Assembly (NCBI RefSeq): GCF_001402915.1
Contig: NZ_CP012945.1
Location: 3,759,501-3,823,500, forward strand
Source of the DNA: Devosia sp. A16
GTDB lineage: Bacteria > Pseudomonadota > Alphaproteobacteria > Rhizobiales > Devosiaceae
Direction of reading: 5' to 3'
DNA: 64,000 nt
In this document: positions 44,082-46,911 of the stretch, in pieces
Position numbering within the stretch: the stretch's first letter is position 1
How the letters are laid out: every line of letters begins with the position of its first letter
Notes under the pieces: generated by a model
Databases searched by the model: none
The model's input: only the letters and a program-made list of their open reading frames with translations
What the model was told of the DNA's origin: nothing
Made by a program: the position numbers and the translations under genes

Positions 44082-45098
44082 ATGCCCTATTTCCCCGCCA
44101 TGACCCACGACCTCGCAACCGCCCGCCGCTTCTCGGTGGCGCCGATGATGGACTGGACGGATCGGCATTGCCGCTATCTGCATCGGCTGCTGACGTCGCA
44201 TGCGCTGCTGTTCACCGAGATGGTGACCAGCGCCGCGGTGGTGCACGGCCCGCGCGAGCGCCTGCTGGGATTCGACCCGGTCGAGCAGCCGGTGGCACTG
44301 CAGCTCGGCGGTTCCGATCCCGGGGAACTGGCCGAGGCAACGCGGATCGCGACCGAGTTCGGCTACAGCGAGATCAACCTCAATGTCGGCTGTCCGTCCG
44401 ACCGGGTGCAGTCCGGCCGGTTCGGCGCCTGCCTGATGGCCGAGCCGGAGCTGGTCGCCGAGTGCGTGCGCGCCATGCGCGATGCCACCGATGTGCCGGT
44501 GACGGTGAAATGCCGCATCGGTATCGACGATCAGGATACCGAGGAAAGCCTAGACCGCTTCGCCGACGCCATGGTCGCGGACGGCGTCGATGCCCTCTAC
44601 GTGCACGCCCGCAAGGCCTGGCTCAAGGGCCTCAGCCCCAAGGAAAACCGCGAAATCCCGCCGCTCGACTACCCGCGCGTGCATCGCCTCGCGGCGCGGC
44701 TGAGGCCGCTGCCGGTGATGATCAATGGCGGCATCAAGACCATCAAGGACGCCGAGGCGCACATGGCGCACATGTCCGGCGTCATGCTTGGCCGCGTCGC
44801 CTATCACGAGCCGATGCTGCTGACGCTGGTCGACGAGCGCTTTTTTGGCGCGCCGAAACAGCAGATCGAATTGCGCGACGTGATGCTTGCCATGGCCGAC
44901 TATGCCGAGCACGAGATCGGCAAGGGTGCGCGGCTCAACAACATCACCCGCCATATGCTCGGGCTGGCCAATGCCCGTGCTGGGGCCCGCACTTTCCGTC
45001 AGATTCTGAGCGTCGACGCGGCCAAGCGCGGCGCCGGGCCGGAGGTGATCATGCGGGCCTTCGACGCGCTGGAGCCGGAGCTGCAGCTGGCGGTGTAA
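44082..45098 (+). CDS. dusA: tRNA-dihydrouridine synthase A
   Basis: Flavoenzyme that reduces uridines in the tRNA D-loop. 338 residues (or 332 from the ATG at 44100, equally plausible). Motifs: FSVAPMMDWTDRHCR (substrate/FMN), LNVGCPSDRVQSGRFGACLM with the catalytic Cys of the VGCPSD/FGACL segment, VKCRIGID, VHARKAWLKGLSPKENR and VMINGGIKT. Neither ATG has a good ribosome site. Divergent from the marR operon. Confidence 0.94.
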   Translation: MPYFPAMTHDLATARRFSVAPMMDWTDRHCRYLHRLLTSHALLFTEMVTSAAVVHGPRERLLGFDPVEQPVALQLGGSDPGELAEATRIATEFGYSEINLNVGCPSDRVQSGRFGACLMAEPELVAECVRAMRDATDVPVTVKCRIGIDDQDTEESLDRFADAMVADGVDALYVHARKAWLKGLSPKENREIPPLDYPRVHRLAARLRPLPVMINGGIKTIKDAEAHMAHMSGVMLGRVAYHEPMLLTLVDERFFGAPKQQIELRDVMLAMADYAEHEIGKGARLNNITRHMLGLANARAGARTFRQILSVDAAKRGAGPEVIMRAFDALEPELQLAV

Positions 45099-45131: not shown

Positions 45132-45235
45132 CCACCCCCTCCCATCCTCCCCCATCAAGGGGGAGGTGCCGCATGGCGTTTGCGGCACGATCCCGCTCAA
45201 ATCACCGGCCCCTACCTCCCCCTTGACGGGGGAGC
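45132..45235. repeat. GC-rich palindromic element interrupted by the IS110 copy
   Basis: Left part of a palindromic element: CCACCCCCTCCCA end, hairpin CTCCCCCATCAAGGGGGAG, spacer beginning GTGCCGCATGG, then second hairpin CTCCCCCTTGACGGGGGAG, cut at 45235. The missing end (GGAGGGGGTGG, complement of the left end) appears at 46394-46404 beyond the IS. Joining the two rebuilds a full element. Confidence 0.8.
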
Positions 45236-45249
45236 GACTGTGTTGCTGG

Positions 45250-46176
45250 TCAAGCGGTTTGCCATGGCTTGTTGTCCCGAATGATGGCGTTGAGGATGGT
45301 GAGGAGTTTTCGAGCGCAGGCGATGAGGGCGACGCGTTTTGGTTTTCCGGCTTCGATGAGACGGTTGGTGAAGGCTTTGAACACCGGGTTGTGACGGGCT
45401 GCGACGAGGGCGCCGATGAAGAGCGCGGCCCGGGGTTCGGGTCGGCCGCCTGCGATCATGCTATTGCCACGCCATCGACCGGACTGGCGGGTGAAGGGAG
45501 CCAGGCCGCACAGCGCTGCGATGGTGCGCCGATCGAGCTGGCCCAGTTCGGGCAGTTCGGCCATCAGCGTGCGGGAGATGATCTTGCCGACGCCGGGAAC
45601 CGACGCCAGCAGGTTCTCCTTATGGCGCCAGGCCGGCGAGCTGCGGATGGCGGTGTCGAGGTCGTCGTCGAGGGATGCCAGTTCGTCGTTCAGCGCCTTG
45701 ATGATGCGAGCGATGCTGGTTTTGATCCGGCCCGCAGCGCGGGCGTGTCGGTTCTTCTCGGCGACCAGCATGCCGACCAGTTGCCGGCGTCGCGCCATCA
45801 GTTCGCCGAGCAGTACCGTTTCGGCATCGGCCAGCGGGCGCAACTGGGGCTTGGTGGCGGCAAGGAACCGGGCGATCACCGCTGCGTCGATGCGATCGGT
45901 CTTGGCCCGCTTACCTTCCGCCTGTGCATAGTGCCGCACCTGCGCGGGGTTGAGCACCAGTACCGGCAACCCGGCCGCCGCCAGTTCGGCCACCGCCAGC
46001 TTCTCGAGCCCGCCGGTGCCTTCCAGCCCGATGCCGTCGGCTCCGATGGCCCGCAACCGCGCCACCAGCACCTCGATCCCGGCCGCCTCATTGTCCACGG
46101 CCAACCGTTCTCCGGACGGATGCACGAACACATCCAGCCGGTCCTTGCTCACGTCGATACCTACGGTGATCTCCAT
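45250..46176 (-). CDS. IS110-family transposase (DEDD recombinase)
   Basis: 308 residues from an ATG at 46176 with GGGAGG five bases upstream. N-terminal RuvC-like domain with Asp8 (VGIDVSKD), Glu52 (LEGTGG), Asp94 and Asp97 (KTDRIDAAVIARF). A coiled middle segment is followed by the Tnp_20 domain: ASVPGVGKIISRTLMAELPE, CGLAPFTRQSGRWRGNS with the serine expected for strand joining, and GGRPEPRAALFIGAL. It appears intact. Related enzymes use a bridge RNA from the element's own non-coding end to select target and donor DNA. Confidence 0.93.
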   Translation of the reverse strand: MEITVGIDVSKDRLDVFVHPSGERLAVDNEAAGIEVLVARLRAIGADGIGLEGTGGLEKLAVAELAAAGLPVLVLNPAQVRHYAQAEGKRAKTDRIDAAVIARFLAATKPQLRPLADAETVLLGELMARRRQLVGMLVAEKNRHARAAGRIKTSIARIIKALNDELASLDDDLDTAIRSSPAWRHKENLLASVPGVGKIISRTLMAELPELGQLDRRTIAALCGLAPFTRQSGRWRGNSMIAGGRPEPRAALFIGALVAARHNPVFKAFTNRLIEAGKPKRVALIACARKLLTILNAIIRDNKPWQTA

Positions 46177-46386
46177 TGCCTCCCATCCTTGCGCAAACGG
46201 GCTCGCCAAGCGGCCCAAGCGACTGTTCGGGATCAATGGATCGAGCCGCAGCGAAACCCGCTCCCCCACGGGCTCCAACACCCAGGCAAGCGTCGTACTG
46301 CTGCGGCTCACCGCACCTGGAACTTTATCAGATGCGGATGAGTCCAAGTTACAAGGCAAGCGCAGCTTGGCAGCTTGCTGCCTAGC
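46177..46386 (-). ncRNA. Candidate bridge RNA region of the IS110 element
   Basis: The 210 bases upstream of the transposase inside the element have no coding frame. They contain a ten-pair stem GAGCCGCAGC (46243-46252) with GCTGCGGCTC (46300-46309) around 47 bases, and a second hairpin GCAAGC/GCTTGC (46356-46378). Position and size match bridge RNAs of the IS110 group. Target- and donor-binding loops were not worked out, so the call rests on context. Confidence 0.55.
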
Positions 46387-46421
46387 GGAGCTCGGAGGGG
46401 GTGGGGCCCCGGGCCCGGCCC

Positions 46422-46911
46422 CTACTTGTGATCCTTCCAGAAATCCGCCTGCAACTGCGCGGCTTCATCGGCCAGCATCGGGCCGACGATCTCGGTGTGG
46501 CGCTGTCCTGCCTCGAACACGATATGGCAGGGCAGGTCGAGTGTCGGGTTCTCCTCGTGCGCCGGTCTGCGCCTTGAGGTCGCGCTCGGTCTGGCCGAAC
46601 ACCACGCGGCCGATACCGGCCCAGTAGATGGCGCCCGAGCACATCGCGCAGGGCTCGGCCGAGGTGTAGAGCGTGCAATCCTGCAGCTCTTCGAGGCTGA
46701 GGTTCTTGGCGGCCCAGGAAGCGAGCAGCTTCTCGGCATGCGCAGTGCGGTCGCCGCCTTCCGAGCTGTAGCCGTTCCCCTGTTCGCGCAGCACCTTGCC
46801 GTTCTTGTCGGCCAGCAATGAGCCGAACGGATGGTCGCCACCCTCGCGCGAACGTCTGGCGACGGCAAAGGATTGGCGCAGCAGGGCTTCGTCATAGGGG
46901 CGTTGAGGCAT
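46422..46911 (-). pseudogene. Cytidine/guanine deaminase-like nucleoside deaminase, frameshifted
   Basis: The first ~118 codons from the ATG at 46911 carry an intact zinc-deaminase core: TAHAEKLLASW (His and catalytic Glu) and TSAEPCAMCSGAIYWAGI (two Cys). After LKAQTGA the frame runs out of homology, and the expected C-terminus (HEENPTLDLPCHIVFEAGQR, ending DFWKDHK) continues in the next frame to TAG at 46422. The shift lies near 46556-46568. One extra base explains it. The core is complete, so partial activity cannot be excluded. The nearby IS shows local rearrangement. Confidence 0.8.

Follow-up and report, generated by a model that had tools for sequence, protein, structure and literature searches.

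The IS621 element of E. coli belongs to the IS110 group and carries a bridge RNA, and guidance by this RNA was reported in 2024 (PMC11208160, PMC11208158). A seekRNA of IS110/IS1111 elements was reported in the same year (PMC11187229). ISPpu9, ISPpu10, ISPa11, and ISRm19 are IS110 elements whose copies, as reported in 2006, all lie in REP sequences (PMC1525189). The targeting of REP-like palindromes by IS110 elements through an RNA is already published (PMC1525189, PMC11208160, PMC11208158, PMC11187229). By title, none of the literature we found on Devosia and IS110 concerned such elements.

We analyzed an IS110-group element in a 64,000-nucleotide stretch of the Devosia sp. A16 genome (the window). 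The element resembles IS621 in having a recombinase homologous along its length, a CT core, a long leader at the left end, putative target and donor loops, a skipped-base right donor guide, and a REP target. It differs from IS621 in its target and repeat family, in its weak junction promoter, and in its guides: those of IS621 have 9 and 4 bases, whereas the right guide of the window element has 7, and over the lineages compared below matching appears strict on the right and, in several, loose on the left. Longer right guides in some relatives were already reported in the 2024 paper. The likeness to ISPpu9, ISPpu10, ISPa11, and ISRm19, drawn from their descriptions, lies in the family and the palindromic-repeat target, although the host and the repeat are different. 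As described for IS110-type seekRNA elements, there is a long non-coding region upstream of the transposase, regions of the putative RNA are complementary to both target strands, and there is no true target duplication; the targets, however, are others, and IS1111 elements carry the region downstream of the gene (PMC11187229).

The transposase scored 84.8 bits for PF01548, 61.9 bits for PF02371, and 207.3 bits for the transposase model NF033542 (cut-off 140). The IS621 chain 8wt6_A aligned with it (E 1.3e-29) with the D, E, D, D, and S motifs kept, where the names of the catalytic residues were taken from PMC11208158 and matched to our protein by motif. The recombinase of ISCro4 (structure 9t56, by its title) was likewise homologous (E 6.1e-29). 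A DEDD transposase with a Transposase_20 domain, together with a 2-bp core, no further target duplication, and one AG at both empty sites described below, places the element in the IS110 family. With 179 bp of non-coding sequence upstream of the transposase and 15 bp downstream, it falls in the IS110 group rather than IS1111. The element is clearly an IS621-like, REP-targeting member of this group. Its features are collected in Table 1.

Table 1. Coordinates (window positions) of the element, its putative guide RNA, and its target repeat.
Feature	Position	Strand	Basis
IS110-group element, 1121 bp	45235..46355	-	End of identity of three copies, end matches, two empty sites
Core dinucleotide CT (AG on + strand), right-end side	45233..45234	-	Copy comparison, empty sites
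Core dinucleotide CT (AG on + strand), left-end side	46354..46355	-	Copy comparison, empty sites
IS110 transposase (DEDD recombinase), 308 aa	45250..46176	-	PF01548, PF02371, NF033542, IS621 chain 8wt6_A
Non-coding leader (left end), 179 bp, with putative bridge RNA	46177..46355	-	Fold; covarying stem over 10 leaders
Left target guide (putative), CGCTTGCCT	46284..46292	-	9/9, exact match to left target plus core
Right target guide (putative), GGGGGAG	46261..46267	-	7/7, exact complement of CTCCCCC
Left donor guide (putative), ACAGTCGCT	46218..46226	-	9/9, equal to element right end plus core
Right donor guide (putative), TTGCGCAAG	46188..46196	-	Pairs with left-end CTTGTAA: two bases skipped, one G-T pair
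Right target half with core, GGGGGAG	45228..45234	+	Copy and boundary reads, guide match
Left target half, GCAAGCG	46356..46362	+	Copy and boundary reads, guide match
Hairpin CTCCCCC-TTGAC-GGGGGAG; arm is the right target	45216..45234	+	198 exact genome hairpins of this form
Left part of interrupted composite repeat	45132..45234	+	Inverted repeats; uninterrupted orthologous copy (L065)
Right part of interrupted composite repeat	46356..46404 (end approximate)	+	Copies, element-free repeats, L065

The ends of the element were set by comparing its copies. Three copies in the genome (G000, 5.03 Mb in one contig) have 1121 bp in common with 0-1 differences, and they diverge past ...CCAAGTTACAAG on the right (46355) and ahead of CGACTGTG on the left (45235). 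Both ends carry the 2-bp core, and the limits could equally well be given as 45233-46353. A search of the genus returned 15 end-reaching matches (in G002, G007, and G010), all of them at query position 1 or 1121, and the weaker remaining matches were internal to the element. End fragments at three loci (L061-L063, 75% identical) were kept out of the counts for the window element. The closest named copy is that of Devosia insulae DS-56, with a 99% identical protein and the same flanks as the G002 copy. The sequence to the right of the element, GCAAGCG(N)AGCTTGG...GAGCTCGGAGGGGGTG, is repeat sequence that occurs free of the element at at least 12 of the places listed. The window element is apparently intact. 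In G010, this element is present at the place orthologous to a second G000 copy, L002 (L056 / L128, G010:C561), yet its end is 96% and the flank 80% identical; it is either a separate insertion at the same target or a transfer between species.

The window copy has a dihydrouridine synthase gene (44082-45098) on one side and a deaminase gene on the other. Of 18 other Devosia genomes searched, 15 were examined, and the two genes are neighbors in 14 of these. Among the 11 synthase-deaminase intervals listed, a single one (L065, in G010) bears the repeat, and there it is uninterrupted. This empty site, orthologous to the window copy, reads ...CTCCCCCTTGATGGGGGAG joined to GCAGGCGCAGCTTGGCAGCTTGCTGCCTAGCGGAGCTCGGAGGGGGTGG, with GGGGGAG followed by GCAGGCGCAGCTTGG at the junction. 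The site orthologous to the L002 copy (L127, in G004) reads GGGGGAG followed by GCAAGCGAAGC and is empty to the base, with the left flank stopping at 1422 and the right flank beginning at 1423. Since both empty sites have one AG, insertion adds the element plus one copy of the 2-bp AG core (CT on the element strand). For the third copy we found no clean empty site, and the repeat was unmatched in the orthologous loci found. The junction corrected in this way was present in 14/19 Devosia genomes at up to 3 mismatches, and its reversed control gave 3 matches in all. At three other Devosia intervals (L067, L074, and L076) the repeat is missing from the short space that separates the synthase and deaminase genes, and the repeat itself was therefore gained or lost there. 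The deaminase gene of the window (46422-46911, minus strand) is split over two overlapping frames and is one open frame in 8/8 relatives inspected, so that the split is either a frameshift or a sequencing error.

Read on the element strand, the target is CGCTTGC-CT-CCCCC within a repeated palindrome. The hairpin CTCCCCC-N5-GGGGGAG occurs at 198 exact places in the genome (control 0) while the intact 14-base target occurs at 10 (reversed control 0), 9 of them within the same repeat; the flanking CGCTTGC therefore selects a minority of the hairpins. All three copies in the genome occupy the exact target in this one repeat family. Over the boundaries read across the genus, our own copies included, the right half was exact in 8/8 and the left half in 7/10, with 1, 2, and 2 mismatches in the exceptions. 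Among the matches listed, these hairpins are often paired, about 70 bp apart.

The leader upstream of the transposase is predicted to fold. The fold of 46180-46345 had a z score of -3.13 and was equaled in 1/200 shuffles. In the stem of the putative target loop, 12/17 pairs had changed on both sides with pairing kept among 10 related leaders; over the whole structure there were 12 such pairs, compared with 3.3 in shuffles and 2-4 when slid by 1-3 columns, all counted on the same alignment that predicted the structure. Two short helices (helices 2 and 3) were invariant across the aligned leaders. The 10 leaders included L088; A2, B, C, and M were omitted because they were duplicates or had diverged too far. 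The target loop is complementary to both target strands, and the donor loop is complementary to the element's own ends, the right donor guide following the skipped-base scheme of IS621 (PMC11208158) with a different, still complementary outer pair; this last fit is one of pattern. In random leaders of like composition, both target guides appeared in order in 1/20,000, the right guide alone in 4.9%, and the left guide alone in 0.22%. Rfam returned nothing in the leader, its two matches, far below gathering scores, falling on the flanking hairpins, and a scan of the linear element for sigma-70 promoters and terminators found none. At the junction of joined ends, TTGACN was at the same place in 10/11 lineages with a weak -10, and the best score for the window element was 9/12 at 15-base spacing, so that a junction promoter is uncertain here.

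We consider it very probable that an IS110-group element spanning 45235-46355 was inserted at CGCTTGC-CT-CCCCC in a repeated palindrome under the guidance of an IS621-like bridge RNA. The ends, core, target, empty sites, recombinase family with its catalytic motifs, conserved folded leader, guide-donor complementarity, and guide-target complementarity, in which guide and target vary in step between lineages, are all observations on sequence behind this reading. By analogy with IS621, the element would excise as a circle whose joined ends express the bridge RNA. The target loop may then pair with both strands of the repeat, through the left guide CGCTTGCCT and the right guide GGGGGAG, and the donor loop with the joined ends ACAGTCG-CT-TGTAA. 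A complex of RNA and recombinase would exchange strands at the CT core and leave no duplication beyond it. Homing to these repeats would follow, since the right guide matches the arm of a hairpin that is abundant and the left guide matches sequence beside one subfamily of it.

We also evaluated the match between guides and targets over 12 non-redundant IS110 lineages: A (the window element), B (4 copies), and C (3 copies) from G000, D (5 copies, G135), together with others found in Rhizobium and Xaviernesmea records and in further genomes of this order. The ends of A, B, C, and D were set by several copies and those of the other lineages by conserved end motifs, and the right guides were read from alignment columns, blind to the target. 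Loci L087 and L088 (left end TTTGTAAC, one base ambiguous) and L092, L094, L113, and L117 (left end absent or not set) were left out of the guide table, A2 (guides the same as A) out of the permutations, and J (N in the flank) out of the left-guide permutation. The right guide matched its own target at 7/7 positions by Watson-Crick pairing in 10/12 lineages (shuffled mean 2.0, maximum 8) and in 12/12 with G-U allowed (shuffled mean 3.0, maximum 9), and 0/20,000 permutations scored as high; several lineages have a right target in common, and the 12 are therefore not fully independent. At the best offset, the left guides summed to 76 compared with 57.3 in shuffles (maximum 73; 0/20,000 as high, n=11). 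Outside the window element they matched at 5-8 of 9 positions, and those of F, G, H, I, and K matched their own target no better than the best other target. As far as sequence comparison goes, this is the less ordinary feature of the set: the right guide, which in most lineages corresponds to the arm of a hairpin, holds strictly to its target, and the left guide is loose in several.

Other accounts of the locus were weighed against this one. The original prediction placed an IS110 element at 45231-46391, bounded by GGAGC, such that its removal would join CTTGACGGGGGAGC to TCGGAGGGGGTGG. Much of what it described is there: the GGAGC letters stand at 45231-45235 and 46387-46391, the transposase between them has the PF01548 and PF02371 domains of the family, the element does interrupt a repetitive palindrome, and of the two outer arms TCGGAGGGGGTGG (46392-46404) complements CCACCCCCTCCCA (45132-45144) at 12/13 positions. 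It was also right that the insertion point can be read from the interrupted repeat. The boundaries themselves are practically untenable. The three genome copies stop being alike after 46355, 36 bases short of the predicted right end, and target repeat takes up 46356 to about 46404. Neither orthologous empty site (L065, L127) matches the predicted junction, which was found in 0/19 Devosia genomes at up to 3 mismatches, and the boundary claim is refuted on the empty-site test that the prediction itself set. GGAGC occurs 65 times on the plus strand of the window and six 5-mers are common to the two 80-bp end zones, so its sharing means little; the only bases shared by the ends are the 2-bp AG/CT core. 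Copies, empty sites, and the junction search together rule out GGAGC as either an element end or a target duplication. An element defined to the base, with a readable putative guide RNA, takes the place of the earlier boundary estimate, and this leader RNA, which the prediction did not contain, appears from its sequence to explain the choice of target.

Two further accounts were considered. That the copies spread by recombination between repeats would fit their sharing one repeat family, but is very improbable: only 0 or 1 base separates the elements, yet their flanks diverge past the repeat, long identical flanks were not seen among the copies, and two of the three loci have empty orthologous sites. 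Recognition of the hairpin shape by the recombinase, with the leader match a by-product, is somewhat less remote, though still unlikely. The hairpin is abundant, with its 198 exact copies, and 9/13 groups target a hairpin arm by a loose criterion. However, shuffled flanks pass the same criterion in 3-41% of cases, and little therefore rests on it. Shape recognition also sits poorly with the three copies all being at the exact 14-base target, which is intact at only 10 places in addition to the 3 occupied, and the targets of C, D, K, and M fail the criterion even though their right guides match at 7/7 with G-U allowed.

Within the bridge-RNA reading, we tentatively suggest, as a possibility that we rate below even, that this clade chooses its targets mainly by a strict 7-base right guide, often on the hairpin arm of a common host repeat, with a relaxed left guide. 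The target loop might then follow the repeat families of the host, and three IS110 elements might divide the palindromes of one Devosia genome among them. If true, strictness over all 7 bases of the right guide would have practical interest in the use of bridge-RNA recombinases. One Devosia genome supplies three of the 12 guide-target pairs, and the whole set is a natural series for testing, beyond IS621, what the left and the right guide each contribute.

Each of the other two elements in this genome has its own site. Element B (L018-L021) is inserted at CT-CTCCCCAGAGGGG, another palindrome, and its right guide GGGAGAG matches this target at 7/7. The protein of element C (L121, L123, and L124) is about 40% identical, and its sites resemble CTTCTCCC-CT-CAGGGGAGAAG and lie, as judged by eye, over the center of a palindrome, with the right guide matching at 7/7 when G-U pairs are allowed.
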